Source of the DNA: Acidobacteriota bacterium
GTDB taxonomy: Bacteria > Acidobacteriota > Polarisedimenticolia > SMYD01
DNA: 38,503 nucleotides
Assembly (NCBI GenBank): GCA_004356015.1
Contig: SMYD01000006.1
Span: 1 to 38,503, forward strand
Direction: 5' to 3'
The position numbers and the translations under genes were made by a program. The stretch's first letter is position 1. Each line of letters opens with the position of its first letter. Below the pieces are notes generated by a model. The model saw only the letters and a program-made list of their open reading frames with translations, was not told the origin of the DNA and ran no database searches. Shown here piece by piece: positions 19,882 to 35,389 of the stretch.

Positions 19882-21350
19882 GGCTGCCTTGCCTGGGGGA
19901 AGAAACGTGCGAGCACCTCGTCGCCTGGAGGGCGCGTGACCAGCGAAACGGATACCAGGGCGAGGGTGGAGGCACCCAGCAGGATCACCACAGGCATGAG
20001 ACCATCCTGGGCCCACGGGAGACCACCGGCCCTCTGCTCGGAGACGAACAGATAGATCCACCCGAAAGCCACGGTGAGGACAGCGGCGATGGCGCCGGAA
20101 CGTGTGGCCCGCCGCCAGAAGAGGGCTCCGGCCATGAGCGGAAAGAGGGCGGCAAAGCCGGTGAAGGACCAGATGCCCAGACTGAAGATGCTGGGGCGGG
20201 TGACCAGGCTCAGGACATAGGTCACCACCAGAATCCCCACCACGAAGAGGCGCCCGGCCAGCACCTGGCGCTGTTCGCTCATGCGGCCGTGAAACCCGAA
20301 GTGGCGCACGATGTCCTGGGTGAACATGGTCCCCAGCGACAGGACCTGGGAATCCAGAGACGACATGACCGCGGCAAAAACCCCCGCGCCCAGAAGGCCG
20401 GCCATGACGCCCGGCGCGTAAAGGTTGATCATCTTGACCAGCACGGCGTTGGCGGCCGGCCCCTCGAGACCGGGAATCGCCACCCTTCCCAGTACCCCCA
20501 GGAGGACACTGGGCACCCAGACGATGGCCACGAACAACGGGTAGGCCACCACGGTCAGACGAAACGACGATGCCCGGCGCGCTGTCAGCCAGTGCATGAA
20601 GATGTGCGGGAACATGGCCACCGACAGGGGAATCAGGGTGAAGCTGAGGAGTTTCAGCGGTGGGATCTCCGGCCCCCGCACCAGCAGCTCCGGCGCGGCG
20701 GCGCCCACGGCGTCCAGAGCCTGGGAAAGTCCGCCGGCGCGGTCCACGATGAGCACGAAGGTGACCGCCCCCAGAACCATGAAGACCAGGGTCTGAAACA
20801 TATTGGCCCACGCCGTCCCCCGCAGACCGCCGGCGGTCACGTAGGCCAGGACCACGGCGCAGATGAGCAGGCTGCCTGCCCATGCCGGCACCTGGCCGGA
20901 GGTGATCTGAGCCATGGCGATACCTCCACCCATGACACCGATGAGCAGGTAGGGCACCAGCAGGGCGGTCAACACCACGAAGAGCAGCAGGCCAAGGGTG
21001 TCCGATTGAAAGCGCTCCCGGAAATACTGCACCTGGGTCAGAAAGCCGTGATGGCGGCCCAGGCTCCAGACCCGGGGCGCCATCAGGAAGATCACCGTCG
21101 GCACCACCAGCGCTGAGGATGAGGCCATGAGGGCGAAGACGCCCACGCCGGTTCGATACGCCTCCCCGGCTGCTCCCAGCAGGGAGAACGCGGTCATGTG
21201 GGTGCCGAACAACGACATGAGCAGCAGGAACGGTCCGATGGTCCGGGTGGCCAGGAAGTAGTCCTCGCCAGTGCCCCGGAAAAGGCGATGGCTGAGCAGG
21301 CCGATGGCCAGAACCAGGGCCAGGTAGACGAGGATCACCGCCAGGGTCAT
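19878..21350 (-). CDS. Sodium:solute symporter (SSS family)
   Basis: 490 residues, about thirteen membrane spans. The N-terminus (LAIGLLSHRLFRGTGEDYFLATRTIGPF) carries the DYFLA-R pattern of the sodium:solute symporter family, and FAAVMSSLDSQVLSLGTMFTQDI matches the conserved helix near the second sodium site. It imports a small solute with sodium; the substrate is not evident. It overlaps by 4 bases the small membrane protein upstream, a common pairing for this subgroup, and the glycosyltransferase downstream. Confidence 0.92.
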   Translation of the reverse strand: MTLAVILVYLALVLAIGLLSHRLFRGTGEDYFLATRTIGPFLLLMSLFGTHMTAFSLLGAAGEAYRTGVGVFALMASSSALVVPTVIFLMAPRVWSLGRHHGFLTQVQYFRERFQSDTLGLLLFVVLTALLVPYLLIGVMGGGIAMAQITSGQVPAWAGSLLICAVVLAYVTAGGLRGTAWANMFQTLVFMVLGAVTFVLIVDRAGGLSQALDAVGAAAPELLVRGPEIPPLKLLSFTLIPLSVAMFPHIFMHWLTARRASSFRLTVVAYPLFVAIVWVPSVLLGVLGRVAIPGLEGPAANAVLVKMINLYAPGVMAGLLGAGVFAAVMSSLDSQVLSLGTMFTQDIVRHFGFHGRMSEQRQVLAGRLFVVGILVVTYVLSLVTRPSIFSLGIWSFTGFAALFPLMAGALFWRRATRSGAIAAVLTVAFGWIYLFVSEQRAGGLPWAQDGLMPVVILLGASTLALVSVSLVTRPPGDEVLARFFPQARQP

Positions 21351-21577
21351 GCATCCCCTCCCCGGGAATCGTCATCATCCAGCCCCCGGGGCCAGGCGAA
21401 CGCCGCGGCCAGAGCCATGATCAGGGTCGCGGCCACGCACAATCCCACATGCCAGGTCAGGCTCGCCGGCAGTCCCAGGACCCGCATGTCGCTGGACGCC
21501 AGCCAGTCGTCATGGCGGAGAATGAAGAGAGCGGCCATGGCGGCCACCAGCAGGACACGGATCCCGCGGCCCTTCAT
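21347..21577 (-). CDS. Small membrane protein paired with the symporter (DUF3311-like)
   Basis: 76 residues with two spans (about 6-20 and 42-62) and an acidic tail (DDDDSRGGD). The pattern of a short loop with GLPASLTWHVG before the second span resembles the DUF3311 proteins encoded beside sodium:solute symporters. ATG at 21577 overlaps the flavoprotein stop and its own stop overlaps the symporter start, so the three are translationally coupled. It is probably an accessory subunit of the transporter. The family call rests on size, topology and context. Confidence 0.75.
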   Translation of the reverse strand: MKGRGIRVLLVAAMAALFILRHDDWLASSDMRVLGLPASLTWHVGLCVAATLIMALAAAFAWPRGLDDDDSRGGDA

Positions 21578-22863
21578 GTCGCAGAAGTTGAAAGGCTCAG
21601 CGGCCGGTAGTCCTGCAGCGGCGACCAGTCATCCAGAAGTTCGATGATGCCGCTGCAGTCCCGGCGGTAGACATTGCCCACCAGGAGGTTCACCAGGTCA
21701 ACGCGGGCTTGCGGGTACCGGCGCAGGAACCTGGCGAAACTGAAGTCTGGGTCGTAAAAGGCGTAGACCAGACGGCGAAGGGCTTCCACTCCCGCCACGA
21801 ACTCTTCACCATGGCGTCCCAGACGGGCACCGCTCAGATCGTCCGCCGCCAGAGCGTCGTGGATGCTGTCGGCGGCGTACTCGGCGGACTTGAGCGCCAG
21901 AAAGACACCTGAGGAATAGATGGGATCGAGAAACCCGAAGGCATCCCCTGCCAGCACCCAGCCATCGCCGGCGATCCTGCTGGAGATGTAGGAGAAATCC
22001 CGCAGGACCTGCACGGGCCCCTCCTGGACCGCCCCCTGCAGACGCTCCTCCAGGGGCGGACAGAGAGCCCGCTCCTCGGCGAAGACCTCCCGGGCAACCT
22101 TGCTGCGCCCTTTGAGGAGGTAATCGATGTGACCCACCACGCCAATACTCATCAGGTCATCAGGCAGCGGGATGGACCAGAACCAGGACTCGCCATGCTT
22201 TGTACGCAGGATCAGCGTGGCACCGGCGTCCCGGCCGCTGTCCCGCGCACCGCCACGAAAACGGGTGAAGTACGAGATATGGCGCAGCCGAGAGTCCATG
22301 ACGCGCAGGCCCAGACGCCGGGCCACGAGTCCGTTCTGCCCGCTGGCGTCGACCAGCACCCGGGCCTGCAGCGGACGCTTGGCACCGTCGCCACCGGTGG
22401 TCTGCACACCCACCACCCTCTCCCCTTCCATGAGGAGACCGGTCACGTTGATGCCGGTGCGCACCTCCACGCCCTTCCCGGCGGCGTGGTCCAGGAGCAT
22501 CTGATCAAACGGCGCCCGATCCACCTGCCAGGTGACGGCACTCTCACCCTGCTCCACCTCGTCAAAATAGAAAGGCAGGGCGCCCCGACCGCTGGGCGCA
22601 AAGAAGCGGACACTCTCCTTCTTCACGAACGGGCCGGAGTGCATCTTCTCCAGGATGCCCAGACGCTGAAAGGTCCAGTAGGTGGCGGGCATGAGGGACT
22701 CGCCGATGCGGTAACGCGGGAACACCTCCCGATCCAGGAGCAGCACGTCCCGGCCTTTCATGGCCAGGAGGGCGGCGGTGACCGACCCGGCCGGGCCCCC
22801 TCCCACCACGATCACATCCCTCTCTGTCCGTGAGAGCATCTCCTGGGGACTCCCGGCCGTCAC
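21574..22863 (-). CDS. FAD-dependent oxidoreductase, flavin halogenase-like
   Basis: 429 residues. Residues 17-30 carry the Rossmann FAD motif VIVVGGGPAGSVTA, and GWVLAGDAFGFLDP (301-314) is the second FAD motif. Two features point to the flavin-dependent halogenase group rather than plain monooxygenases or geranylgeranyl reductases. W227-F-W229-S-I-P232 fits the WxWxIP motif, and K81/K82 in PFVKKESVRFF lies at the position of the catalytic lysine (K79 in PrnA). Halogenases form hypohalous acid that reacts with this lysine, but the wider family also holds epoxidases and reductases, and no carrier or reductase partner is adjacent. It overlaps its neighbours on both sides by 4 bases. Confidence 0.8.
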   Translation of the reverse strand: MTAGSPQEMLSRTERDVIVVGGGPAGSVTAALLAMKGRDVLLLDREVFPRYRIGESLMPATYWTFQRLGILEKMHSGPFVKKESVRFFAPSGRGALPFYFDEVEQGESAVTWQVDRAPFDQMLLDHAAGKGVEVRTGINVTGLLMEGERVVGVQTTGGDGAKRPLQARVLVDASGQNGLVARRLGLRVMDSRLRHISYFTRFRGGARDSGRDAGATLILRTKHGESWFWSIPLPDDLMSIGVVGHIDYLLKGRSKVAREVFAEERALCPPLEERLQGAVQEGPVQVLRDFSYISSRIAGDGWVLAGDAFGFLDPIYSSGVFLALKSAEYAADSIHDALAADDLSGARLGRHGEEFVAGVEALRRLVYAFYDPDFSFARFLRRYPQARVDLVNLLVGNVYRRDCSGIIELLDDWSPLQDYRPLSLSTSAT

Positions 22864-24092
22864 GAATCCGCAGAGAGGTCGAAGGCCACCAGTTCCTCTT
22901 CGTCCCGCACATACAGCCGCCCGTGGCTGAGAGTGGGCATGGTCCAGGTCTTGCCGTCCATGGGCCTGGTCCGGCCGGTTTCCCGGTACCCCTCAGGCGT
23001 CGCCTCGGCCACGGCCAGTTCGCCCTTCTCGCTGAAGATGAACAGATGCCCGTCGGCGACCAGGAGAGACCCCTTGGCAAAGCCGCGCTGCTTCCACTTC
23101 TCCTCACCAGTGGCGCCGTCAATGCACTTCAAGGTGCCGTCGTCGAATCCGTAGAGGAATCCGTCCAACAGGACCGAGCTGTTGAAATGGTTCTTCATGA
23201 CCCGGCTGCGCCAGACTTCTTCGACCTTCCAGGCATCTCCCTTGCCGCTCACCTGCAGAAGGGCGGCACCGGTGTCGTACCCCGAGGAGATGAAAATACG
23301 ATCGGGCGCCATGAAGATGGGCATGGCGGCGTTGATGTTGTAGGAAGTCTTCCAGGGCAGGCTCCAGAGAGCCTTGCCCGAATCGGGAGCCACCGAGACC
23401 AGGGCGGTGCCGGTGAAGAACAGGACCTGGCGCGTGCCGTTGATGGTCACCGCCAGGGGGGAAGAATAACCGGTCTTCTGATCGCCGGTCCCCCAGGCGA
23501 CCTCCCCGGTGTCGCGCTTGAAGGCCATGAGATTGCGCGAGTCGCTGCCGCCCACTTCCAGGATGACCAGGCCATCCTCCACCAGAGGTGACGCGGACGA
23601 ACCAAAGTGAGGCAGTTTGGCGTCGAACGCCTCCTCCAGGTCGTGCTCCCAGACCATCTTCCCGTCATGGGCCTTCACCGCCACCAGGCGGCCCCTGGCG
23701 CTGAGTGCGAAGACCAGATCGCCATCCACGGTGGGCGTCGAGCGCGGCCCGTTACCATGCCCCTCCTTGAAGCCCTTTCCCAGAACCACCCTCCAGATTT
23801 CCCCGCCGTCTCCGGCGGCCAGACACACCAGACGGGCCTCTCCGTCCCGGGCGTACATGGTGTAGAGACGATCCCCCACCGCGGCAATTCCCGAATACCC
23901 CTCCCCCAGGGGCGCCCGCCAGAGTTCCGGGGGACCCGACGCGGGCCATGTGGTCAACAGACCGGTCTCAAGGGAAAGACCGTCGCGCTCCGCGCCCCGG
24001 TACTGGGGCCAGTCATGGCCGGCGTCACCGGCCAGCGTGGTGGCCAGGGTCAATCCAGCCAGCACAGCACAGGTCATCAGATAGCGCTTCAT
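22860..24092 (-). CDS. Secreted PQQ-like beta-propeller protein (410 aa)
   Basis: 410 residues with a Sec signal (MKRYLMTCAVLAGLTLATTLAG). After DWPQYRGAERDG come repeated units of the W-docking type (CLAAGDGGEIWRVVL, AVKAHDGKMVWEHDL, AFKRDTGEVAWGT, SVAPDSGKALWSLPW, CIDGATGEEKWKQRG), giving a seven- or eight-bladed propeller. There is no vicinal Cys-Cys pair and no obvious catalytic domain, so a true PQQ dehydrogenase is unlikely; such proteins bind partners or ligands in the periplasm. It is one of four propellers in this run and lies between the radical SAM gene and the flavoprotein, overlapping the latter by 4 bases. Confidence 0.88.
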   Translation of the reverse strand: MKRYLMTCAVLAGLTLATTLAGDAGHDWPQYRGAERDGLSLETGLLTTWPASGPPELWRAPLGEGYSGIAAVGDRLYTMYARDGEARLVCLAAGDGGEIWRVVLGKGFKEGHGNGPRSTPTVDGDLVFALSARGRLVAVKAHDGKMVWEHDLEEAFDAKLPHFGSSASPLVEDGLVILEVGGSDSRNLMAFKRDTGEVAWGTGDQKTGYSSPLAVTINGTRQVLFFTGTALVSVAPDSGKALWSLPWKTSYNINAAMPIFMAPDRIFISSGYDTGAALLQVSGKGDAWKVEEVWRSRVMKNHFNSSVLLDGFLYGFDDGTLKCIDGATGEEKWKQRGFAKGSLLVADGHLFIFSEKGELAVAEATPEGYRETGRTRPMDGKTWTMPTLSHGRLYVRDEEELVAFDLSADS

Positions 24093-24117
24093 ATCACGTG
24101 CCTCCAGGAGAAAAAGA

Positions 24118-25419
24118 TCATGTGTAGCGAATATTGCGAAAGGCCGGGGCGTAAAAAGACGGCAGCAGGTGATCCACCTGCAGCAGGCCGGCGCGTGTGA
24201 GAGTGATCCCCGACGATGTCACTCCGGCCAGGCCACGCTCCTTGAGATCGTCCCAGACTTCAGACCAGTGGTCAACGATATCGATACCGAATTTATTGTG
24301 GAAGTAGGCCGGATCGAGGCCGCCCATCTTGAGTTGCAGGATCACCTCCCTGGTCAGGCGATCCTCGGGGCTGGTGGCATAGGCCCGCTCGATGGGTAGT
24401 TCGCCCCGCTCGAGCCCCTGGAGATACGGCTCCCAGCCGGAGACATTCTGGAAGTGCACGCCGTTGACATGGGAGAACGACGCCACCCCGGTCCCCAACA
24501 GGTCAGCACCGTGCCACAGGGCATCCCGATAGACAAAGCGGGAGCCGGCCCCTTTCAGCACCGTGTAGGCGCTGGAGATCCTGTAGCCGGCGGCCTCCAG
24601 GCGTTCATACGCATGGTCCTGCCAGGCCCGGCGCGTCTCCCAGTCGGCCACCGGGACCGGGTCACCGTTGTCCAGAACGCGCCGGGAATAGACCGTATTG
24701 AAAGGCAACTCCATCTGATAGATGGTGACACTGTCGGGTGCCACTTCCACGGTGCGGCGCACCGTGTCTTTCCAGGTCTTCCAGGTCTCCCCCACCATGC
24801 CGGCGATGAGATCGATGTTGAGCTGATCAAATCCCTGGGCCTCGATCCAGGGCAGGACCCGGTAGATTTCCTCAGACAGGTGGGCGCGACCGTTCTCCGC
24901 CAGGATGTCGTCATTGAAATTCTCTACACCCAGGCTCAAACGTGTCACGCCGACACCCCGGATTGACCGCAGCTTGGCCTCGCTGATGGTGCCCGGCTCA
25001 CACTCGAAGGTGATCTCCCTGGCCTTGTCCCAGGGCAGGGACTCGGTCACGTTGGCCACCAGTTCCTCCAGGAGGCGGCTGGAGAGATAGGAGGGCGTGC
25101 CACCACCGAAATAGACGAAGTTCAGCGGCCGCCCCTGAACCGCCGGACGGGCAGCCAGAAGCTGCGTCTCCCGGGTGAGGGCCGCCAGGTAGCGGCGCAC
25201 GCCGGCGCTGTCCTTCTCGGTGTAGATCTTGAAGTAGCAAAACTTGCACCGCTTGCGGCAGAAGGGAATATGCAGGTAGAGGCCAAGGGGCACACCTTCC
25301 GCTCCAGGGCTGTCCAGAGCGCGACGGGCTGCGTCCACCTGCCCTTCGCCCCACGCCGAATAGGGCGGGTAGTTGGAGACGAAGACGCTCCCGACATCTT
25401 CTTTTTTCACGTCAGCCAT
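24118..25419 (-). CDS. HemN/HemW-like radical SAM protein
   Basis: 433 residues. LHIPFCRKRCKFCYF holds the [4Fe-4S]/SAM cysteines C54, C58 and C61, and NFVYFGGGTPSYLSSRLLEEL is the SAM-binding glycine motif of the HemN superfamily. The C-terminal third (TREVILQLKMGGLD, LTRAGLLQVDHLLP) resembles the HemN C-terminal domain. Members include coproporphyrinogen dehydrogenase, the heme chaperone HemW, and class C methyltransferases and cyclopropanases of natural-product pathways. The setting between propellers and beside a halogenase-like flavoenzyme favours a biosynthetic role; that is inference. The start at 25419 gives an 8-base overlap with the gene upstream; a longer frame lies inside that gene. 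Confidence 0.88.
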   Translation of the reverse strand: MADVKKEDVGSVFVSNYPPYSAWGEGQVDAARRALDSPGAEGVPLGLYLHIPFCRKRCKFCYFKIYTEKDSAGVRRYLAALTRETQLLAARPAVQGRPLNFVYFGGGTPSYLSSRLLEELVANVTESLPWDKAREITFECEPGTISEAKLRSIRGVGVTRLSLGVENFNDDILAENGRAHLSEEIYRVLPWIEAQGFDQLNIDLIAGMVGETWKTWKDTVRRTVEVAPDSVTIYQMELPFNTVYSRRVLDNGDPVPVADWETRRAWQDHAYERLEAAGYRISSAYTVLKGAGSRFVYRDALWHGADLLGTGVASFSHVNGVHFQNVSGWEPYLQGLERGELPIERAYATSPEDRLTREVILQLKMGGLDPAYFHNKFGIDIVDHWSEVWDDLKERGLAGVTSSGITLTRAGLLQVDHLLPSFYAPAFRNIRYT

Positions 25420-26602
25420 CTTGCACGTCTTTCTCGACTTTCTCTGCTCTCGCTTCGCCGGCCCCAAAACAATAGAGCATGCCATCCAGCGTCCCGATGA
25501 CCATGCGCCCTCCAGCCACAGCCGGTGACGCAATGACCGAAGAGCCTGTGGCAAACTCCCAGACTTTCTCGCCGGACCTGAGGTTCAGGCCCACCAGGTC
25601 ACCGCCCATGGTCCCGAAATAGACGGTCGGCCCGGCGATGACCGGCGATGAATCGACCCGTGAGCCGGCGGCATGGGTCCAGACGGCATGACCCGTTTCC
25701 GGATCCAGGGCATGGACAAGCTTGTCCCGGCCACCGATGACGACCCTGTCGGCACTGAGTGCGGCGGAGGAATAGAACGGGAAGTGACGCTCCGGATTCG
25801 CGTAGGCCCACACGACCTTCCCCGCCACCAGATCGATACCCAGAACCTGGTTCTCGAAGGTGCCCACGAAGACCAGACGGTTGCCCACGGCAGGGCTGCC
25901 CCCGACATAGGCATCGATCCCCACCGTCACGACATCGCTGCCGTCGCGCGGGTCCAGCCCGCGCAGGAGACCGTCGCAACCCGCCACGAGCACAACCTGG
26001 CGCTCTCCCAGCCGTGCCACTGCTGCCGTGCCATAGATATAGGATCCGGTCTCGACCTTCCAGACCAGTTCACCGTTGTCGGGATTCAGGGCGTAGAGGA
26101 AATTGTCCTGAGAACCGAAGATGACCCGGCCACCGGCAAAACTGGCCGAGGCGATGACACCGCCGTCAGCAGCAAAGGTCCATTTCACCTTGCCCGCGGC
26201 GGCGTCCACGGCGTGAAAGATCCCGGACTCGTCGCCGAAATAGACAATGCCCTTGCGCACGGTGGGCGACGATTTGATCTCGTCGCCGGCTTCATAGGTC
26301 CAGAGCAGCTTGCCGCTGTTGAGGTCCAGGGCGTGAAGTTCGCCGGCCAGTGAGCCCACATAGACAACGCCGTCCACCATGGCGGCCGTGGATTCAATAC
26401 CGTCATCTGCCTCGAACGTCCACAGCACGGTAAGATCGGCCGGCAACGACTGTGCCGCCGCGCCGGTCAGCCGGGCATCGCCGCGAAAGGAGGGCCAGTC
26501 GTCACCGGCCGCCGCCCAGGCAGGGTCCATGGCCGCCCCGGGGAGGAGTATCAAGGCGCCATACAGAAGGCCATAGTTCAGGTTGGTACGCAGGGCCATC
26601 AT
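25412..26602 (-). CDS. Secreted PQQ-like beta-propeller protein (396 aa)
   Basis: 396 residues. A signal peptide (ending near AWA-A) precedes DDWPSFRGDARLTG and about eight very regular blades of about 40 residues, such as ALDLNSGKLLWTYE, AVDAAAGKVKWTF, ALNPDNGELVWKVE, GIDLVAGKVVWAYA, ALDPETGHAVWTHA and GLNLRSGEKVWEFA. This is the repeat of BamB and quinoprotein dehydrogenases. It lacks a vicinal disulfide and any cytochrome domain, so it reads as a binding or scaffold protein. It starts one base after the alcohol dehydrogenase stop and overlaps the radical SAM gene by 8 bases. The second codon is also ATG. Confidence 0.88.
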   Translation of the reverse strand: MMALRTNLNYGLLYGALILLPGAAMDPAWAAAGDDWPSFRGDARLTGAAAQSLPADLTVLWTFEADDGIESTAAMVDGVVYVGSLAGELHALDLNSGKLLWTYEAGDEIKSSPTVRKGIVYFGDESGIFHAVDAAAGKVKWTFAADGGVIASASFAGGRVIFGSQDNFLYALNPDNGELVWKVETGSYIYGTAAVARLGERQVVLVAGCDGLLRGLDPRDGSDVVTVGIDAYVGGSPAVGNRLVFVGTFENQVLGIDLVAGKVVWAYANPERHFPFYSSAALSADRVVIGGRDKLVHALDPETGHAVWTHAAGSRVDSSPVIAGPTVYFGTMGGDLVGLNLRSGEKVWEFATGSSVIASPAVAGGRMVIGTLDGMLYCFGAGEARAEKVEKDVQDG

Positions 26603-26603
26603 C

Positions 26604-27809
26604 TCAGGCGGCTTGCCGGTAGAGTTCGAGCAGATCCGCCGCCGTCACCGGGCGAGGGTTGAATCCTGCTGTCCACTGGCGGGCGGCTTCCTCCGCCATG
26701 GCAGGCAGAGACGAGGTATCCACTCCGGCATCCGCCAGGGTCGCGGGCAGGTGGCACGCCTCGCGCAACGCCTCGACGCGCGTTGCCAGTTCATGGGGCG
26801 AGGCGGCGGTCATGCCGGCCCTCCTCTGCAGATCCGCGTAGGCCGCGGCGATCATCTCGCCATTGAAGCGCACAACATGGGGCAACATGAGCGACACCGC
26901 AATCCCATGGACAATGCCGTGGCGGGCGGTCAGGGGATTGGCACAGGCATGAGCCGCGCCCAGCATGCCTCGATCGATCCCCGCCCCGGCCAGGTGAGCG
27001 CCCCACAACATGCCCGCCCGTGCCGCCTCACCTGCGGACTCGCCCAGGGCCGGTGCAAGTTCCGTGGAGAGCAACCGCCAGGCTTCCGCCGCGAACATCC
27101 TTGCCGTGTCATCGGCGGGGAGCGACACGAAGCTCTCCACCGCGTGGGCAACCGCATCCATTCCGGCCACGGCGGCCACACGGCGTGGCACACTGACCAG
27201 AAGCCCGGGGTCGAGGATCACGGCACGGAAGCGGGCCTTGTCATCGCCGCAGGCCATCTTCTCCTTGTCGGCCGCCCGGGCGATGAGAGCGTAGGCCTGC
27301 GCCTCACTGCCGGTGCCTGCCGTGCTGGGCACACCCACCGAATCGAGCATGGGAAGGGTGGCGCGATTCGTACCGCGATAATCCTCCATCTCGCCACCGT
27401 TGGTCAGGATGAAATTGATCCCCTTGGCGCAGTCCAGGGAGCTGCCGCCCCCCAGTCCCACGATAAAATCGATCTTCTCCCGCCGCGCCATCTCGACGCC
27501 GGCGGCCACATGCAAGGTTGTGGGATTCTCTTCCACACCGGAGAAAACAGCGACGGCCAGGGATTTCTTCCTGAGAGCCGACCGGGCCCTGTCAGCGTGC
27601 CCTGCCTTCACCAGCCCCGGGTCGGTCACCACCAGGACCCGCGTGCCGCCCAGATCCTTGACCAGGGAGCCCAGGGCTTCCAGCCGGCCCTCGCCAAAGA
27701 GGACCCGGGTGCCGTTCACCTGGCTGTCCCACGGCGCCTCGTCAAGGCCGGGAAGCCTGCCCGTTGCTGTCGCCCGGCGAGGGACAGGCGGCGGCATCTC
27801 GCCGGTCAT
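26604..27809 (-). CDS. Iron-containing alcohol dehydrogenase
   Basis: 401 residues. The NAD site GLGGGSSLDCAKG (about 118-130) and the metal ligands D218, H222, H287 and H301 match the spacing of the group III iron alcohol dehydrogenases such as FucO. These interconvert an aldehyde and an alcohol with NAD(P)H. The long open frame extends 48 codons upstream inside the preceding gene; ATG at 27809 overlaps that gene's stop (ATGA) and fits the family length. Directly downstream of an acyl-reductase-like gene and a LuxE-like gene, it would reduce the resulting aldehyde to an alcohol, or run in the oxidative direction. Confidence 0.92.
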   Translation of the reverse strand: MTGEMPPPVPRRATATGRLPGLDEAPWDSQVNGTRVLFGEGRLEALGSLVKDLGGTRVLVVTDPGLVKAGHADRARSALRKKSLAVAVFSGVEENPTTLHVAAGVEMARREKIDFIVGLGGGSSLDCAKGINFILTNGGEMEDYRGTNRATLPMLDSVGVPSTAGTGSEAQAYALIARAADKEKMACGDDKARFRAVILDPGLLVSVPRRVAAVAGMDAVAHAVESFVSLPADDTARMFAAEAWRLLSTELAPALGESAGEAARAGMLWGAHLAGAGIDRGMLGAAHACANPLTARHGIVHGIAVSLMLPHVVRFNGEMIAAAYADLQRRAGMTAASPHELATRVEALREACHLPATLADAGVDTSSLPAMAEEAARQWTAGFNPRPVTAADLLELYRQAA

Positions 27810-29251
27810 GCGGCAGCACTCGCGGCGGAGGCGGGATTCTGGAAGGCGCGGCGGTGGTAGAGAAGCTCGAAGAGATTTCCCTCGTGGGGCTGATCCCATG
27901 AAACCCTGCCGGTGGGGATGGAGCCCAGATTCAACCGCTCGATGTGCCGGCATTCCATGGCGGCGCCGGCGAAGCGATCGTCGCCGGTGAGCACCGTGCC
28001 CACAAGGGTCGGGCCTATGAGGTCCAGCAGATCGGCCGGCGGGACTTCCACATAGGCGGCGAAGGGAAAGAGCAGCTCAGCACGGGCCAGCGCGTGGGCC
28101 GGATCGGTACAACGGATCAGGGTGGGACGGAGGAAAGCCAGACCATCCATCTCGACCACCCTGCCATCCTTGTAATAGGGGGCGGTGAGATCCTCCGCTC
28201 CCGGCGCTTGCAGATGATCGTCGATGAAATCCGAAATTCGTCGCGCCACCTGCACGTCACCGAATGCCGCCAGACGCGCATCCGGATGGTCCAGCGGCAG
28301 CGGTTCCATGGCTGCCAGTTTCTCCGCCAGAGCCTCCGCCAGACCCGGCGCCCTGCCACCGACCCACACGCCTGAGGCGTTGACGCACGATCGACCCCCG
28401 TTATCGGCAATCGATGCGGCCATGAGCTCGACGTGGTCTTCCCACCTGGAGATCTGATCGGGAGCCAGCAGGACCTTGCTCTTGCCGGGACCGTGCAGCT
28501 CGATGCGGCGATCATGGAGCCACGGCTTCACCGTGGCGGCATCCCCGAAGAAGAGCGACCGATGGCAGCGGCTCAGGATCTCCGTAGCACCGGCATAGTC
28601 ACTTGGATAGAAGCTGAGTGCCTCCGGGGGGCAACCCGCGGCCAGGAACGCCTGAATGACCCGGAAAGGTGTCCACGGCTCCTGGCGGCCTGGCCGCAGC
28701 ACCAGCGGCACCTTCATGGCCACAGCCGGCAGCCAGAGGGCGTGCACTCCCGGCGAATTGCTGGGCAGCACCGCGCCCAGCATGTCGGCCTGGCTCAGAT
28801 AGCTCACCGGACGCTGGGCGTTACCGTTCCACCCTTCATCCAGGACCGACAGGTCGAGGCCGCGGGTCAGGCCCATGAGAATCCGCTCCATCTCCGCCAG
28901 GACAAAACGAATCTTCTCCATATTGCGATGACACAGGGCGCGAGGCACACCGGTGGTGGCCGACTGGATGGCCACGAATTCATCCGGCCCCTGCATGACG
29001 TCTCCCATGGGCAGGCGGCCGGTCATGAACAGATCGGCGGCACGCCGGGACATGGAGATCAGTTCCGAGACAGGCCGTTCCGCCAGGATCTGCCGGTTGT
29101 GACGAGCATCGAGGATGAGATCCCGGGCGATGAGACCCGGGTTGGCCTGGCTGACCAGGGCAACCGTCTCGCCGGTTCCCACATGCTTGAGCTGGATGGT
29201 ATCCAGGCTGAGATACGGCTTGCCCCCGCGGAGAACGGGCAGGTGCAGCAT
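27806..29251 (-). CDS. Aldehyde dehydrogenase-fold acyl reductase (LuxC-like)
   Basis: 481 residues, the size of LuxC. The ALDH-fold cofactor region begins near VLPSNSPGVHALWLPA (161-176). The general base E251 lies in ELHGPGKS and the nucleophile C289 in NGGRSCVNAS, with the usual spacing, so it looks catalytically competent. LuxC enzymes reduce an acyl group delivered by LuxE to an aldehyde; related acyl-CoA reductases use acyl-CoA. Its start overlaps the LuxE-like stop by one base (TGATG), supporting a joint acid-to-aldehyde reaction. An ordinary aldehyde dehydrogenase acting in the oxidative direction is the alternative. Confidence 0.8.
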   Translation of the reverse strand: MLHLPVLRGGKPYLSLDTIQLKHVGTGETVALVSQANPGLIARDLILDARHNRQILAERPVSELISMSRRAADLFMTGRLPMGDVMQGPDEFVAIQSATTGVPRALCHRNMEKIRFVLAEMERILMGLTRGLDLSVLDEGWNGNAQRPVSYLSQADMLGAVLPSNSPGVHALWLPAVAMKVPLVLRPGRQEPWTPFRVIQAFLAAGCPPEALSFYPSDYAGATEILSRCHRSLFFGDAATVKPWLHDRRIELHGPGKSKVLLAPDQISRWEDHVELMAASIADNGGRSCVNASGVWVGGRAPGLAEALAEKLAAMEPLPLDHPDARLAAFGDVQVARRISDFIDDHLQAPGAEDLTAPYYKDGRVVEMDGLAFLRPTLIRCTDPAHALARAELLFPFAAYVEVPPADLLDLIGPTLVGTVLTGDDRFAGAAMECRHIERLNLGSIPTGRVSWDQPHEGNLFELLYHRRAFQNPASAASAAA

Positions 29252-30330
29252 CAGTAGACTCCCACCACGACCGAGGTCTTGAGAGAGGAGAGGAGGCCCA
29301 GATTGCTGACCCCGTCCCACGGGAACTGCTCGCAGGGTGCCGCCCTCTCGCCTTCGTCTCGCTCCGCGAAGCGGGGCATGAAAAATTCTCTCGTCAGCGT
29401 CGTCAGGAGAACCCGCCCGGTGGCTCCGTAGGGCACCGTCTCATCCAGGTTGTCGGGGTTGACGATTTCAAACACCGCCCGGGGCAGCGGCGGGTAATAG
29501 ATGATGGCGTAGTGATCTGCCGGGTCGTACGCCTTGGCGACGGCCAGGCCCATGAGGGTGTTGCCGTAGGTGGGCACGAAATCGATGCCGGGAGCCAGTT
29601 CCTCGCGCACAAAGCGGTTGAACTGGGCCGTCATCTCGGTCCCCCCACAGAAGATGCCGGTGAATCCCAGCTTCCCCAGGGGACAGCGCTGGGAGAGGGC
29701 ATCCAGCAGCTTGGGGGTGGTGAACAGGCACTTGATGTTGGGATGGGCACCCATGATCTTCATGGCCTGATCGATCACGTGGTCCTTGTAGGCCTTCATC
29801 TCCTCCCAGGCCTGGCGCTTGACCAGGTTGTTGACCCAGCGGGGATCCAGATCCACGAAGAAGCACATCCCACCGCGATACTGGGCCAGGTGCTCGATGG
29901 CCAGGCGCAGGCGGCGGGGGCCGGTGGGTCCCAGCATGAGCCAGTCGGACCCCTTGGGAAACCCCTCGTCGGAGAGTTGATCGCCGAACGCTTCATAGTC
30001 GACGCGAAAATCGTTGATGTTGATGCGAGTCTTGGGAACCCCTGTGGAGCCGCCGGTTTCGAACACGCACAAGGGCTGCCCCTGGAGCCCTCTGGGCAGC
30101 CACCTGCGCACCGGCCCGCCCCGCAGCCAATCATCCTGGAAATGCCCCAGCTTCTTCAGATCGTCGTAACCCTGGATCGTCTTCCGTGGGTCAAAGTCCA
30201 TCTTCTGCGCATAATTCAGCCAGAATTCGCAGCCCGTGTCGGGATTGAAGTGCCACTGCACAATCTCACGGACGTGGGCATCCAGCCGTTGGCGCCCGGC
30301 GGCAATCTCTTTCTCCAGGGAGGCATCCAT
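29251..30330 (-). CDS. LuxE/PaaK-like acyl-protein synthetase
   Basis: 359 residues. ETGGSTGVPKT (91-101) is the AMP-binding P-loop of adenylate-forming enzymes, and FCGGTEMTAQF (228-237 region) and VPTYGNTLMGL (252-262) match the later core motifs of the LuxE/PaaK group. The length fits LuxE (about 370), which lacks most of the mobile C-terminal domain of acyl-CoA ligases. LuxE activates a carboxylic acid with ATP and holds it on a C-terminal cysteine; C333 is a candidate. The longer open frame upstream runs into the preceding propeller gene; ATG at 30330 gives the family-length protein. It is the first enzyme of the acid-aldehyde-alcohol trio. Confidence 0.85.
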   Translation of the reverse strand: MDASLEKEIAAGRQRLDAHVREIVQWHFNPDTGCEFWLNYAQKMDFDPRKTIQGYDDLKKLGHFQDDWLRGGPVRRWLPRGLQGQPLCVFETGGSTGVPKTRININDFRVDYEAFGDQLSDEGFPKGSDWLMLGPTGPRRLRLAIEHLAQYRGGMCFFVDLDPRWVNNLVKRQAWEEMKAYKDHVIDQAMKIMGAHPNIKCLFTTPKLLDALSQRCPLGKLGFTGIFCGGTEMTAQFNRFVREELAPGIDFVPTYGNTLMGLAVAKAYDPADHYAIIYYPPLPRAVFEIVNPDNLDETVPYGATGRVLLTTLTREFFMPRFAERDEGERAAPCEQFPWDGVSNLGLLSSLKTSVVVGVY

Positions 30331-30355
30331 GGTGCTCTCTTTCGTGGCGCTCACC

Positions 30356-30369
30356 GGCCGACACCGGCC
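30356..30369. terminator. Small hairpin in the gap before the luxE-like gene
   Basis: GGCCG-ACAC-CGGCC forms a 5-pair, all-GC stem with a 4-base loop in the 46-base gap after the propeller gene, the longest gap inside the leftward run. No T-run follows on the minus strand. It might slow transcription or set mRNA stability between the propeller pair and the enzyme genes. Confidence 0.2.
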
Positions 30370-30376
30370 AGAATCT

Positions 30377-31840
30377 TCAGCGGGATTCCGGAGCCCCGCC
30401 GGCCGGGGCGATCCCTTTCTTGAGGGCAAATATCTTGTTGCGGGACACCACGTACATGACACCGTCCCGGGCCACCGGTGTGGTGTAAACCGCCGCCCCC
30501 ATGTTGGTCTCGTACAGCAGTTCCATGGTCGTACCGGCCTTGAGCACGGCGATGTCGCCATCCTCGTCGCCGATGTAGACCTTGCCGTCAGCCACCCATG
30601 TGGAGCCCCAGATGGCGGCGAAGGTATCGTACCTCCAGTGCAGCTTGCCGGTCTCCAGATCGAAGCAATAGACAAACCCGGACAGATCGGCGATGTAGAG
30701 CAGTCCATCATGAATCGACGCGGTGGACATGGTGCGATGGAAGTCGTCGCCACCCACGTGCCAGACAGTGGCCTTGTCGGATACATCGCCAGTCATCGTG
30801 CCGTCGATGGCGTAGAAATGACCGCCGGATTCGCCGTGCTCCGGATCCTGGCCGACTCCCAGGTAGACCCGGTCTTTGTAGATCACCGCTGTCGAGATGA
30901 TGTTGTTGCGCGTGCCCGAGCCGCCCAGCACCCACTTGGAATCCTTGGGATTGAGGTCGAATTTCCAGATCAGCTTGCCGGTCTTGGGCTCGTAGGAATA
31001 GAGCCAGCCATCGCCACCGGGGAAGACCACCTGGGCTTTGCCACCCATGACGCCGTAGGAGGGGTTGGACCAGCTTCCATGCAGGACATCAGGTGACGGC
31101 TCGACCCCTTCCCACACCACCTTGCCGGTCTTGATGTCGATGGCCAGAAAGCTGGGCGACAGCGGCGACGGGATGTTCACGTGCCCTTCATCCACACCCT
31201 GGCCGGTGATCACGAAGAGGATGCCGTCCACGATAAGGGGGCTGCCGGCGGCCAGATTGTGCGGGAACACATCCAGTTCCTCGATCATGTCCAGCTTCCA
31301 GATGATGTCCTCATCCATGGGGCCGGTGGCGGTCTCATCTCTATAAGGGCCGTCGTTCTCGCCGTCGGTGAAGCCTTCGGCGTCGGCGGCGATGATCTCG
31401 GCCCGGTTGGAGGTGTAGTAGACCACGCCGTCATGAATGGCCGGCGTGGAACATACGCCCTGCAGGGGCCAGTCGTTGACCCGGCCCGCCGGCAGCTTGG
31501 CGTGGGCCGACTGCCAGATCAGCTTGCCGGTCTTGATGTCGAAGGCCATGACATTGCCGCGGTCACCGGTCAGCTTGGGATTGTAGAGATGCTCGTTATT
31601 GGTCCCCACGTAGACTCGGCCGTCGGCCACCACCGGTCCGGCGTAGCTCTGCGAGCCCAGTTCAGCGGACCACAGGATGTTGAGCCCTGTTGCGGCATCG
31701 AACCTGGTGGGCAGGTTCTTCTCATCGCTGACCATGTTGTGGGACGGTGTGTTGCCGTACATGGCCTCCTCCGCCACCGGCACCGTCCCTGCGGCCAGCA
31801 GCATTCCCCCCAGAATCAACCACACAGAGTTCTTTCTCAT
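30377..31840 (-). CDS. Secreted PQQ-like beta-propeller protein (487 aa)
   Basis: 487 residues with a Sec signal (LILGGMLLAAGTVPVAEEA). Propeller repeats include AFDIKTGKLIWQSA, AIDIKTGKVVWEGV, SYEPKTGKLIWKFDL and CFDLETGKLHWRYD. Insertions such as ADAEGFTDGENDGPYRDE are acidic and could bind calcium. No cytochrome domain or vicinal cysteines are seen. It overlaps the larger propeller gene upstream by one base (TGATG). Being the second gene from the operon head, it should be well expressed. A structural or binding role for a partner of the cluster is likely, but the ligand is unknown. Confidence 0.88.
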   Translation of the reverse strand: MRKNSVWLILGGMLLAAGTVPVAEEAMYGNTPSHNMVSDEKNLPTRFDAATGLNILWSAELGSQSYAGPVVADGRVYVGTNNEHLYNPKLTGDRGNVMAFDIKTGKLIWQSAHAKLPAGRVNDWPLQGVCSTPAIHDGVVYYTSNRAEIIAADAEGFTDGENDGPYRDETATGPMDEDIIWKLDMIEELDVFPHNLAAGSPLIVDGILFVITGQGVDEGHVNIPSPLSPSFLAIDIKTGKVVWEGVEPSPDVLHGSWSNPSYGVMGGKAQVVFPGGDGWLYSYEPKTGKLIWKFDLNPKDSKWVLGGSGTRNNIISTAVIYKDRVYLGVGQDPEHGESGGHFYAIDGTMTGDVSDKATVWHVGGDDFHRTMSTASIHDGLLYIADLSGFVYCFDLETGKLHWRYDTFAAIWGSTWVADGKVYIGDEDGDIAVLKAGTTMELLYETNMGAAVYTTPVARDGVMYVVSRNKIFALKKGIAPAGGAPESR

Positions 31841-34056
31841 CAGTTATTCACCGTCACTTGAATGTTGTCCCAGTAAGCATCGGCCCGGGCGTGACCCACC
31901 ACGCCAGGACTCCCATAGGTAACGGGATGCGGATCTTCGGCCGTCAGGGTCCAGTCCCCCGGCTCCTCCTCACCTCGCTTCCAGATCTTGCCGCGGACCT
32001 GGGCTGTCTTTCCGCTCGTTTCCACGCGCAGTTTCATGACATACCAGGTGTCCATGTCCCAGGTGAACTTGGTCTCCTGGGACATGCGCAGATCCGCCGA
32101 TGTGGAGCGGATCTGAACCTTCTGGTGAGCACCCTGCAGGTCCAGGATGTACCCGCTGTTGATGAGCCCCAGGTCGGCGCGGCGGCGGCCCTTCTGGGAG
32201 CTGAACACATCGGCCTGGATGGTGTATCCGGATGCATCGGGGCGCCCGATGAAAGCCGTACGGCGGTCGATGCCGCGCGCACTGGGGGCCTGATGCAGCA
32301 CCTTGCCACCATCCCGCTCGGCCACCTTGAAGCTGCGGCCGGCCCGGACCCAGGTGGGCGGAACAATGCCCGTCTCCATGCTCTCGAAGTCCAGAGACCA
32401 CGGTGCTACGGGCAGCACTCGCACCCAGGCCTTGGCTTCAACCCCGCCGGCGCTCACCTTGACGGTGCCCGTTCGGGGGCCACCGCCGTCTCCAGGGGTA
32501 TAGACACCTTCGGGAGAAACCGTCCCATCCAGTCCATCCAGCGACCATGTCAGGTCGGGAGAGGCCACGGGCTGTCGCTCACCGTCCAGGGCCCGCACCG
32601 TGAAATGAATCGGACGGCCGGGAGTGGCCACAGCAATGGCCGGCACAACCTGCAGCCAGTCGGCCTCACCCTGGCCGGGCGCCGGTGCTTCCGCGGCCCG
32701 CAACGGGCCGTTGTTCAGAGGCCGCGTGCTGTCACCCAGGGCGTAGAGACCGCCCTCGGTGGCGAAGAAGACCCGGCCATAGGCCACCGCCGGTGAACTG
32801 TAGATCTCGGCGTAGCGACCGTCTTCAACCTTGAGTTCGTCCATGTCCAGGCTCTCGACACCGTCTCTGCCCAGCTCGAGGATGTGGAAGCGTCCATTGA
32901 CCTCGGTCGCGTAGATCTTGCCGTCGGCCACCACCACCGAGGCCTTGCCCACCGTGCCCAGGGAATACTCCCACTTCTCCGTGCCGGTCTCGGCGTCCAG
33001 GGCATGGAGGTTGGCCGAGTTGTCCGACAGGTAGAGCACGCCGTCGTGATAGGCCGGCGAAGGAAAGCCGGCGAAGACCTCGTCGTTGCGCCACACCTCG
33101 GCGGTCTTGGTGATGTCGCCCTCGCCTTTGGCTTCGAAGCAGACCAGGCGGCCCTGGGTCGTGGCATCCAGGTTCTCTTCGCTGTGCGACGCGAACACCC
33201 GATTGCCGTGGACCAGAACCGTGCTGTTGAGGCCGCGCTTGCTCAGCTGAAAGCCCCACACTTTCTCGCCGGTCTCCAAACGCAGGCCGTAAATCCAGCC
33301 GTCGCCGCTGCCGGTGACCAGCATCTTGCGGCCGTCGATGACGGCGGCCACCGGGGTCGACTGGGTATTGAAGTCGAAGGCCATGCCGCCGGGCGTCGCC
33401 ACCCAGACGATCTCGCCGGTCATCTTGTCCATGGCGTAATAGCGATGGCTGAGGCGGCCCAGGTCTCCCCACCCGACGCTGATGAAGCTGATGATCATCA
33501 GGTCGTCCACCACCAGGGGCGTCTGGGTGCGGCCTCCGTAGCCGGAGTAATGCCCCAGTTCATCTCCCATGAAGCGGGACCAGAGACGCTTCCCGTCGGG
33601 GGCATAGCCGATCATCTGCCCCGAGACACCGTGGGCATAGATGTTGCCGGTGGCCGGATCGGCCGCCAGGCTGGCCCAGCCCACCCGGTTGAACGGCACG
33701 GTGGTGTGGTAGACGTTGAAGCGATCCTCCCAGAGAAGGTCACCGTTCTCCGCGTCAAAGCAGGCCACCCGCTCCTGCCGATCGATCTCTTCGCCGACGC
33801 GGCCGATGACGCAGACGCGGCCATCCACCACGACCGGCGTGGAGCGGCCGATGAAGTCCGCCTTCCAGATCATGTTCTCGCCGCCGGGCGTCCACGAAGA
33901 AACCAGGCCGGTCTCCGTGGAGGTGCCGTCCTGCTGCGGCCCGCGCCAGGCAGGCCAGTCTTCGGCATATCCCCCCTGATCCGCGCCCGTGCAGGCCAGA
34001 GTCAGACAAAGTCCGGCCGCTGCCACCAGTTTGAAGGTCCCACCCACGGTTCTCAT
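31840..34056 (-). CDS. Lipoprotein with PQQ-like propeller, Ig-like and lectin-like domains
   Basis: 738 residues. A leader ending in LTLAC predicts a lipoprotein. Residues about 35-460 form a propeller (DWPAWRGPQQDG, then repeats such as CFDAENGDLLWED, AMDKMTGEIVWVA, GLRLETGEKVWGF and ALDAETGTEKWEY). About 475-565 look like an Ig-like domain (TPGRPIHFTVRALDGE, VTWS-like strands). About 570-738 resemble a concanavalin/LamG-like sandwich (LDFESMETGIVPPTWV, YWDNIQVTV). This mix suggests binding to a carbohydrate or surface polymer outside the cytoplasmic membrane. It heads the long leftward run; GGAGGAG precedes the ATG by ten bases. Confidence 0.88.
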   Translation of the reverse strand: MRTVGGTFKLVAAAGLCLTLACTGADQGGYAEDWPAWRGPQQDGTSTETGLVSSWTPGGENMIWKADFIGRSTPVVVDGRVCVIGRVGEEIDRQERVACFDAENGDLLWEDRFNVYHTTVPFNRVGWASLAADPATGNIYAHGVSGQMIGYAPDGKRLWSRFMGDELGHYSGYGGRTQTPLVVDDLMIISFISVGWGDLGRLSHRYYAMDKMTGEIVWVATPGGMAFDFNTQSTPVAAVIDGRKMLVTGSGDGWIYGLRLETGEKVWGFQLSKRGLNSTVLVHGNRVFASHSEENLDATTQGRLVCFEAKGEGDITKTAEVWRNDEVFAGFPSPAYHDGVLYLSDNSANLHALDAETGTEKWEYSLGTVGKASVVVADGKIYATEVNGRFHILELGRDGVESLDMDELKVEDGRYAEIYSSPAVAYGRVFFATEGGLYALGDSTRPLNNGPLRAAEAPAPGQGEADWLQVVPAIAVATPGRPIHFTVRALDGERQPVASPDLTWSLDGLDGTVSPEGVYTPGDGGGPRTGTVKVSAGGVEAKAWVRVLPVAPWSLDFESMETGIVPPTWVRAGRSFKVAERDGGKVLHQAPSARGIDRRTAFIGRPDASGYTIQADVFSSQKGRRRADLGLINSGYILDLQGAHQKVQIRSTSADLRMSQETKFTWDMDTWYVMKLRVETSGKTAQVRGKIWKRGEEEPGDWTLTAEDPHPVTYGSPGVVGHARADAYWDNIQVTVNN

Positions 34057-34356: not shown

Positions 34357-35379
34357 ATGCATCGTCGTAGCCCGATCGCAATCACCCTGATGGGTCTCAT
34401 TGTTCTGACCATGGCCTGCAGTCGCGATGGTAGTGGCGGCCCTCCCGGTGACAGCACCGCGACCGGGGACACCGGCGGCACCCGTTTCCTCAGTATCGGC
34501 ACGGCCCCTCCCGGCGGGGCTTTCTTCGTGGTCGGAGGTGCCCTGAGCGAAGTGCTGGACACCTACGGGCCGGCAGGCTGGTCCGTGACCGCCGAGGCGA
34601 CCAAGGGCAGCCAGGAGAACATCCGCCGCCTGGCTTCCGGGGAACTGGATGTGGCCCTGGCCAACGCCGCCATCAGCTACTTTGCCGTGCGCGGCAGCGA
34701 AGGCTGGGAGAAAGCCTATCCGGTGCGCACCGTCATGACCCTGGCACCCAACGTGGCCCTGTTCCTGACCCCGGCCAACAGCGGCGTGAAGACCCTGGCC
34801 GACCTCAAGGGCAAGCGCGTGGTCGTCGGCCCGGCCGGCGCGGGATTCAACTACTTCCTCCGTCCCTTGCTGGGCGCCCACGGCCTGACCTATGACGATT
34901 TCACCCCGGTTCACAACACCCAGGCCGCCGCCGTGGACATGCTGGCCGACGGCTCGGCCGCGGCCGCCTTTCTGGGCGGCGCCGTTCCCACGGCGTCCAT
35001 CACCCAGGCCACCGCTTCCCGTGACACGTTGTTCATCCCGTTCGATCCTGTTGCGGTCCGGAAGCTCACGACCGAATACCCCTTCTTCGACACGGCCACC
35101 ATCCCGGCAGACACCTATCGCGGGCAGGAAGAGGAGTTCGCCGGGCTCAACGTCGGCTCCATGCACCTCATCACGTCCGAGCCCGCCGACGAGGACCTCA
35201 TCTATCAGATCACCCGCACCATCTACGAGAATCGTGCAAAGGTCGTCGAGAAACACCCGGCCGGCCGCGCCATCAACCCCAGGGTCGTCGTGCGGGACAC
35301 CGGCACGCCCTTTCATCCCGGCGCCATCAGGTATTACCGGGAGATAGGTATCTGGCCCGAGCCGGAATCCGGCTCCTGA
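34357..35379 (+). CDS. TAXI-family TRAP transporter solute-binding lipoprotein
   Basis: 340 residues from the chosen start. A leader ending in LTMAC predicts a lipoprotein. The mature part begins SIGTAPPGGAFFVVGGALSEVL and continues with TKGSQENIRRLASGELDVALANA and LKGKRVVVGPAGAGF, the standard pattern of TAXI (TRAP-associated extracytoplasmic) binding proteins. An in-frame ATG seven codons earlier exists, but GAGGA is six bases before the ATG at 34357 and the promoter position agrees. It captures a substrate for the fused permease encoded 10 bases downstream. TAXI proteins mostly bind organic or amino acids; the ligand here is unknown. Confidence 0.92.
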   Translation: MHRRSPIAITLMGLIVLTMACSRDGSGGPPGDSTATGDTGGTRFLSIGTAPPGGAFFVVGGALSEVLDTYGPAGWSVTAEATKGSQENIRRLASGELDVALANAAISYFAVRGSEGWEKAYPVRTVMTLAPNVALFLTPANSGVKTLADLKGKRVVVGPAGAGFNYFLRPLLGAHGLTYDDFTPVHNTQAAAVDMLADGSAAAAFLGGAVPTASITQATASRDTLFIPFDPVAVRKLTTEYPFFDTATIPADTYRGQEEEFAGLNVGSMHLITSEPADEDLIYQITRTIYENRAKVVEKHPAGRAINPRVVVRDTGTPFHPGAIRYYREIGIWPEPESGS

Positions 35380-35389
35380 AGATTTCGGC

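Follow-up and report, generated by a model that had tools for sequence, protein, structure and literature searches.

We analyzed a stretch of DNA (hereafter the window) that constitutes the entire 38.5-kb contig SMYD01000006.1 of the 2.73-Mb draft genome of an Acidobacteriota bacterium, and found that it carries a conserved gene cluster in which a predicted reductase of aromatic carboxylic acids is encoded together with an alcohol dehydrogenase, a radical SAM enzyme, a halogenase-like flavoprotein, transporters and four secreted beta-propellers of the pyrroloquinoline quinone (PQQ) fold. Judging from the homology of its core enzymes, the cluster probably performs aromatic-acid reduction; export of a small molecule is somewhat likely, and the chance that the propellers act on the same molecule as the reductase falls just short of even. 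As a whole, we tentatively interpret the cluster as a conserved, envelope-linked pathway built around a two-component ATP/NAD(P)H arylcarboxylate reductase, a reading that we hold at rather less than an even chance. The system is apparently undescribed: an earlier note on this DNA, made from the sequence alone, knew of no pathway with this set of genes, and the limited literature searched, which covered few subscription journals, held no description of the gene combination, the dedicated propellers or the spread of the system. The parts are of known kinds, whereas the combination with dedicated propellers and its spread are new as far as that literature shows.

The earlier note had described nine genes in a tight leftward run at 21574-34056. 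Profile matches place all nine there on the minus strand; the run itself is longer, reaching 14080, and its import/export half, from the DUF3311 gene onward in the list below, had been missed. Because no gap among the 15 minus-strand genes from propA (34056) to the ABC permease gene (14080) exceeds 46 nt, and most neighbours overlap by 1-16 nt, these genes likely form one operon, as follows:

31840..34056, minus strand: propA, a secreted PQQ-fold beta-propeller of 738 aa with a signal peptide/possible lipobox and C-terminal Ig-like and LamG-like domains (PF13360, 2e-26)
30377..31840, minus strand: propB, a secreted PQQ-fold propeller of 487 aa (PF13360, 5e-31)
29251..30330, minus strand: EhpF/GriC-type arylcarboxylate-activating ANL enzyme of 359 aa, the "LuxE" of the earlier note (EhpF 3hgu/3l2k, full length, E 4e-42)
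27806..29251, minus strand: aldehyde dehydrogenase (ALDH)-superfamily reductase, partner of the EhpF-like enzyme (EhpG/GriD role; PF00171, 8e-9)
26604..27809, minus strand: iron-containing alcohol dehydrogenase (Fe-ADH), aldehyde to alcohol (PF00465, 1e-46; PF25137, 2e-32)
25412..26602, minus strand: propC, a secreted ACSF4/PQQ-like propeller of 396 aa (PF13570, 249 bits, over the cut-off)
24118..25419, minus strand: HemN-superfamily radical SAM enzyme (rSAM) of 433 aa, in a subfamily of its own (PF04055, 1.5e-21)
22860..24092, minus strand: propD, a secreted propeller of 410 aa (PF13360, 1e-37)
21574..22863, minus strand: FAD-dependent halogenase-like/monooxygenase-like flavoprotein of 429 aa (PF04820, 6e-28)
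21347..21577, minus strand: DUF3311 small membrane subunit of the SSS symporter (PF11755, 7e-9)
19878..21350, minus strand: SSS-family sodium:solute symporter of 490 aa, a probable carboxylate importer (TIGR00813 138.7 bits, panF 122, MctP 48.5, all below cut-off)
18568..19881, minus strand: GT4 glycosyltransferase (GT) of 437 aa (PF00534, 2e-28)
18134..18571, minus strand: 4HBT-family acyl-CoA thioesterase of 145 aa (PF13279, 1.3e-12)
17454..18140, minus strand: LolD/MacB-like ABC ATPase, start codon uncertain (PF00005, 8e-35; LolD 247 bits, below cut-off)
14080..17469, minus strand: large FtsX-type ABC permease of 1129 aa, the presumed export/extraction partner (weak ADOP/DevC/LolCE matches)

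The reductase pair carries the argument for an aromatic substrate. The gene that had been called LuxE-like (we keep the name for the gene) encodes a protein whose residues 18-359 align to EhpF through its last residue (147 bits, E 4e-42), so that it is a full-length homologue of this adenylating ANL enzyme and, like it, lacks a C-terminal domain; PF04443 (LuxE) has no match anywhere in the genome. The EhpF structures 3hgu/3l2k are its only solved relatives, with a full-length alignment and a profile score of 182 bits. The product of the adjacent, overlapping gene is indeed a member of the ALDH superfamily but not LuxC, with no match to PF05893 and no LuxE or LuxC match among the proteins, and corresponds instead to the partner dehydrogenase of EhpF/GriC-type enzymes. 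The ANL loop TGGSTGVPK and the catalytic Cys289 are, as had been reported, intact, and they are conserved across relatives; in the same alignment the usual general-base Glu of the ALDH is not invariant, which would fit a reductase of the acyl-transfer type. We accordingly discarded a LuxE/LuxC lipid route, and the case is strong, on homology, for assigning the pair to the EhpF/EhpG (GriC/GriD) type, in which two proteins together reduce an aromatic carboxylic acid. The iron alcohol dehydrogenase was correctly recognized from the start, and the families present support the proposed acid-to-aldehyde-to-alcohol enzyme set combined with extracytoplasmic propellers. They do not support the lipid-like product suggested with it: the reductase pair falls in the EhpF/EhpG-GriC/GriD aryl family, and the CoA ligase, thioesterase and halogenase-like families associated with the cluster likewise suggest an aromatic acid.

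Homologous pairs occur next to each other in aromatic contexts. In tblastn searches, both window reductase proteins matched neighbouring genes on plasmids, in a Pantoea phenazine (phz) operon, in Streptomyces and in haloarchaea; in Streptomyces Mg1 the pair lies beside DAHP synthase and pabB genes, and related Streptomyces proteins are annotated as arylcarboxylate reductase. EhpF-O convert phenazine-1,6-dicarboxylate towards derivatives of griseoluteic acid, a compound with a hydroxymethyl group (PMC3175449), and ehpF and ehpG are also neighbours in Proteus (PMC11278526). In grixazone synthesis, GriC forms the acyl-AMP of an aryl acid, which GriD reduces to the aldehyde (PMC10179220). The window cluster shares with the EhpF/EhpG system for D-alanylgriseoluteic acid/phenazine in Pantoea/Enterobacter agglomerans the ANL enzyme without C-terminal domain and the adjoining ALDH-family reductase, but lacks the phz core and adds Fe-ADH, rSAM, the halogenase-like flavoprotein, propellers, importers, GT and the ABC transporter. 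With GriC/GriD of Streptomyces griseus it shares the two-part logic of acyl-AMP formation followed by aldehyde reduction, whereas no 3-amino-4-hydroxybenzoate genes accompany window-type clusters; a 3-amino-4-hydroxybenzoate substrate made by a GriH-type synthase was rejected, PF01959 being absent in the 26 genomes tested. Separately, a plasmid of Halalkalicoccus jeotgali (L125:7508-11566) carries an SSS symporter gene followed by EhpF-like and ALDH genes, placing this core in an archaeon.

The cluster is widely conserved. When 84,980 species genomes were scanned with a LuxE-like alignment, 300 relatives emerged, and the best 80 were retrieved; by submitter titles, these 80 are Acidobacteria, Poribacteria, Gemmatimonadetes, Latescibacterota, Calditrichia and KSB1. 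Using every window protein in tblastn, we found the order propA-propB-LuxE-ALDH-FeADH-propC-rSAM on a single strand in relatives, and the cluster order recurs at 50-70% identity in at least six phyla (Acidobacteriota, Poribacteria, Gemmatimonadota, Latescibacterota, Calditrichota and KSB1); the genes are thus not together in this genome only, as the earlier note had allowed. The fuller order in the clusters is propA-propB-"LuxE"-ALDH-FeADH-propC-rSAM-propD-(TonB)-(PaaK)-halogenase-like-(SSS)-GT-thioesterase-ABC. Counting only loci with enough flanking sequence, the LuxE-like gene has on its own strand propA upstream at 59 of 65 loci, propB at 66 of 74 and the ALDH gene downstream at 57 of 63, and Fe-ADH, propC and rSAM lie inside 9.5 kb at about half of the loci, the rest being accounted for by genes inserted between them in Poribacteria. 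The sulfatase, M19 dipeptidase, PhyH and LamG genes amid the Poribacteria clusters have no counterpart in compact clusters and were treated as lineage insertions.

Co-occurrence across genomes points the same way. Within the class of the window, the LuxE-like and rSAM genes are found in the identical 6 of 41 genomes, far beyond what chance would give (2e-7, or 1 in 4.5 million, if the genes were independent). Of 85 Poribacteria, 74 have the LuxE-like gene (in one the match is weak and partial), as do 77 of 396 Acidobacteriota, in 47 of 210 genera; the nearest named relative, with a 93% identical LuxE-like protein, is an Acidobacteria metagenome-assembled genome (MAG), and the complete genome of Acidobacteria bacterium Mor1 is of the same class as the window. 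The LuxE-like tree groups largely by phylum, with 8 changes of phylum label compared to 19.7 in shuffles, although Gemmatimonadota and Latescibacterota are intermixed, and the system is therefore old and mostly free of recent transfer. Near-universality in the sponge-associated Poribacteria, together with an order kept in six phyla, would imply an aromatic metabolite important to little-cultured bacteria.

The cluster occurs in extended and reduced forms. A siderophore-type TonB receptor gene directly follows propD in L042, L073, L080, L082, L088 and L089; the receptor of L080 exceeds the curated siderophore-family cut-off (252 vs 223.5 bits), and the arrangement propD-TonB-(PaaK)-halogenase-like is shared by Gemmatimonadota, Latescibacterota and Acidobacteriota, the PaaK-like aryl-CoA ligase gene standing in relatives between rSAM or TonB and the flavoprotein gene. 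In Calditrichia, propD, TonB, DUF3311, SSS and GT lie together on a single strand. SSS homologues also occur in clusters L013, L014, L077 and L095/L096, the 4HBT thioesterase gene of the window is flanked by the GT and ABC ATPase genes, as are its orthologs in L092, L094, L096, L120 and L122, and ABC permease orthologs are found in the same five loci and in reduced clusters. The window encodes a second putative importer divergently to propA, linked to the operon but outside it:

34357..35379, plus strand: TAXI-type TRAP solute-binding protein (PF16868 on the L120 ortholog)
35390..37345, plus strand: fused TRAP permease (PF06808 on the L120 ortholog)

Relatives of this TRAP-TAXI system (34357-37345), 59-65% identical, are cluster-linked in Mor1, in one Gemmatimonadota and in one Poribacteria genome (solute-binding protein, 59-65%: L023/L093, L120 and L121; permease, 59-62%: L093/L023 and L120). 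With both SSS/DUF3311 and TRAP-TAXI recurring in linkage to the cluster, the inner-membrane importer seems exchangeable. The reduced form, in other Acidobacteriota, consists of LuxE-like (a more distant protein, 56-65% identical), ALDH, GT, ABC ATPase and ABC permease genes only, so that the GT4 enzyme is kept there too, and a propeller gene follows at about half of these loci (L130-L137, L141 and L142). In near-complete genomes of one Acidobacteriota genus, a propeller gene sits between the LuxE-like and ALDH genes (L127, L128 and L129; a diverged copy in L140), and the L129 protein belongs to the PQQ-dependent methanol/ethanol dehydrogenase family (571.8 bits vs a cut-off of 480). Comparing full and reduced forms, the reductase, the exporter and an extracytoplasmic propeller are therefore common to both.

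The radical SAM protein, which had been described as HemN-like, belongs to that superfamily but is not HemN itself. Its CxxxCxxC motif is intact and conserved across relatives, and it shares a HemN-like body with HemN and HemW and with HutW and NocN, the latter two being class C radical SAM methyltransferases of two-SAM chemistry, but both of its termini carry conserved motifs of their own. It reaches none of the HemN, HemW and HutW cut-offs (187 vs 325 bits for HemN, TIGR00538; 182 vs 400 bits for HutW), its match to NocN covers the N-terminal half only (98.9 bits), and comparison of CRKRCKFCYF with CHKLCYFCGC of E. coli HemN shows that the extra HemN Cys is absent. A role as coproporphyrinogen III oxidase was ruled out on the strength of these cut-offs and the missing fourth Cys (CxxxCxxCxC). 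Since another HemN-superfamily protein is encoded elsewhere in the genome, the cluster enzyme is unlikely to be the housekeeping one. A second, divergent member of the cluster-type subfamily (492 bits) was seen at G005:C20:73547-74815 (L116:11544-12812), with no LuxE-like gene nearby and with an amidase and an MBOAT gene in the region.

The flavoprotein proved to be CmlS/CndH-like, in keeping with its first description as halogenase-like. Its relatives in the PDB are 8zop, CndH, PltA and CmlS, and Lys82 and the WFWxIP motif, in alignment with 8zop and CndH, are invariant in 9 homologues. With these variant-B flavin-dependent halogenases it shares the fold family, the Lys and the WxWxIP motif, but its score of 192 does not reach the CmlS equivalog cut-off of 900, the family also includes non-halogenases, and any halogenating activity is putative. 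It is also distantly related to QhpG/LodB/GoxB, hydroxylases of residues in protein-derived quinones.

All four PQQ-like propellers of the earlier note have BamB/PQQ-fold domains and signal-like N-terminal stretches. The most conserved is propB (57-72% identity), whose alignment has an enzyme-like pattern: numerous H, D, E, Q, N and W residues do not vary. AlphaFold2 models of propB and propA were good (predicted local distance difference test, pLDDT, 80.7 and 85.6), and Foldseek matched them alike to BamB, designed propellers, quinoprotein alcohol dehydrogenases and other dehydrogenases, and tetrathionate hydrolase; given such mixed matches, no function was assigned from the models. The propellers resemble PQQ-dependent alcohol dehydrogenases and the "acido-empty-quinoproteins" in the 8-bladed PQQ fold, and related clusters contain a PQQ-dehydrogenase-family member, but the window proteins are shorter, fall far below the family cut-offs and lack the vicinal Cys pair for PQQ stacking (no CC in propA-D), in a genome without pqqE. 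The pqqE gene was found in none of 77 cluster-bearing Acidobacteriota and in none of the other cluster-bearing genomes tested, the same search being positive in 17 of 319 other Acidobacteriota; this contrast is weak (p 0.023, with phylogenetic clustering in two families). The NCBIfam "PLuB system" PQQ-repeat model was dropped, with a weak match to propC, none in the genomes tried and no paper found. Through the cluster, the function of the very abundant "PQQ-like" propellers can be approached and tested in organisms that lack PQQ synthesis.

We propose the following scheme. An aromatic acid would be taken up by the TonB receptor, where present, and then by SSS/DUF3311 or TRAP-TAXI; in some lineages it might be activated with CoA by the PaaK-like ligase, its ring modified by the halogenase-like flavoprotein and the radical SAM enzyme, and the acid freed by the 4HBT thioesterase. 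The EhpF-like enzyme would then adenylate the acid, the ALDH reduce it to the aldehyde and the Fe-ADH to the alcohol, for the product to be exported with the help of the GT and the ABC transporter. The PQQ-fold propellers may bind or re-oxidise this product outside the cytoplasm, and the acid may return. The aromatic-acid part rests on EhpF/EhpG-GriC/GriD homology and the aromatic contexts of homologous pairs, and is also supported by the linked PaaK-like ligase, 4HBT thioesterase, halogenase-like flavoprotein, carboxylate importers and TonB receptor; the syntenic propellers and the PQQ-dependent alcohol dehydrogenase-family gene between the reductase genes (L127-L129) likewise count for the scheme as a whole. 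A closed aryl acid/aryl alcohol redox cycle is possible but doubtful. Its proposed logic, reduction inside and oxidation outside, resembles that of fungi, which cycle aryl alcohols by redox with an aryl-alcohol oxidase and an aryl-alcohol dehydrogenase (PMC8140971), but no proteins are homologous and the likeness is one of analogy only.

Several observations weigh against the proposed pathway. Substrate, product and transcript are all predictions from sequence. The propB model is nearest to BamB, making oxidation by a propeller a guess, and propA-D score 38-101 bits, far below the PQQ-dehydrogenase cut-off of 480 (TIGR03075). TonB receptor and PaaK genes are absent from the window's cluster, as are Fe-ADH, rSAM and halogenase-like genes from the reduced clusters, and the GT has no evident role if re-oxidation has to act on the alcohol itself. 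A further reading, in which the genes serve to produce and handle an aromatic redox molecule (a mediator or non-PQQ cofactor) dedicated to the PQQ-fold propellers found in Acidobacteriota, Poribacteria and allied groups, seems to us rather unlikely; if true, it would account for genomes that lack PQQ synthesis but keep conserved quinoprotein-like proteins in one operon with enzymes of three kinds, namely an arylcarboxylate reductase, a radical SAM protein and a halogenase-like flavin enzyme.

An aromatic redox pathway has two serious rivals. One is an aromatic metallophore, a halogenated or hydroxylated aldehyde/alcohol chelator exported by the ABC transporter and re-imported by TonB as a metal complex, with the propellers as extracytoplasmic binders. 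The siderophore-type receptor and its fixed place in three phyla speak for it, but no receptor was seen in the window's operon or the Poribacteria loci, a TonB subfamily is no proof of the ligand, and the recurrent neighbours include neither FecBCD/Fec/Fhu-type importers, the carboxylate-type SSS and TRAP-TAXI being found instead, nor chelator (peptide, hydroxamate) assembly genes. With four propellers also left unexplained, we regard this option as unlikely. The other rival, again unlikely in our estimate, is an aromatic quinone-like cofactor made for the secreted propellers in place of PQQ, in hosts unable to make PQQ. It is favored by the distribution of pqqE, by the genomes of genus g89, which lack pqqE and have a PQQ-dehydrogenase-family protein between the reductase genes, by the distant kinship of the flavoprotein to QhpG/LodB/GoxB, and by the resemblance of a radical SAM enzyme, flavoenzyme and ABC exporter to cofactor maturation. 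Against this, the pqqE contrast is weak, the window propellers pass no quinoprotein model, PQQ could be scavenged, and carboxylate-to-alcohol reduction and glycosylation are not obvious quinone chemistry.

Catabolism of an environmental aromatic acid would account for the TonB, SSS and TRAP-TAXI importers and for the PaaK-like ligase, flavoprotein and thioesterase families, but is improbable: an ATP-dependent carboxylate reductase, a GT and a MacB/Lol-type ABC transporter are not catabolic, and ring-cleavage genes are not recurrent. Conversion of a fatty acid to a fatty aldehyde or alcohol for a secreted lipid-like product, the LuxE/LuxC-type route of the earlier note, is very improbable; LuxE and EhpF are both adenylating enzymes and the ALDH-Fe-ADH order fits an acid-to-alcohol route, but the LuxE and LuxC families are unmatched and the nearest relatives act on aryl acids. 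PQQ-fold propellers are common in the phyla carrying the cluster, but the idea of unrelated neighbours, together by chance or through a shared promoter only, has next to no chance of being right, contradicted as it is by order and strand held in six phyla at 50-70% identity and by the exact co-occurrence.

Several minor observations concern the cluster and its surroundings. An enolase-superfamily gene lies close to the ALDH gene in L127, L128, L129 and L144, all of one Acidobacteriota family, and exceeds the o-succinylbenzoate synthase cut-off where tested (L128 and L144); it could hint at which aromatic acid is used. In two relatives (L092:5093-8166 and L096:6857-9984), the genes after the ABC permease gene encode an amidotransferase of XrtA/PEP-CTERM type that resembles asparagine synthase, and another GT4. 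In one MAG (L097:14023-15115), a frameshift splits the LuxE-like gene, sequencing error and decay being indistinguishable there. In several Poribacteria, a small two-gene module, by eye a RelE-type toxin-like gene and a HicB-like partner, stands directly behind the LuxE-like gene (L032:11077, L061:11077, L063:5727 and L064:11077, plus ~0.5-0.8 kb downstream) and is followed by a second copy of the 3' end of that gene (80-88% identical DNA), as though the module had been inserted into this end while restoring it. Elsewhere in the window, at 25-3135, 4803-6509 and 7875-8675, inspection by eye showed ordinary respiratory genes: one for a molybdopterin/4Fe-4S protein that resembles the alternative complex III subunit of ActB type, with genes for cytochrome oxidase subunits nearby.

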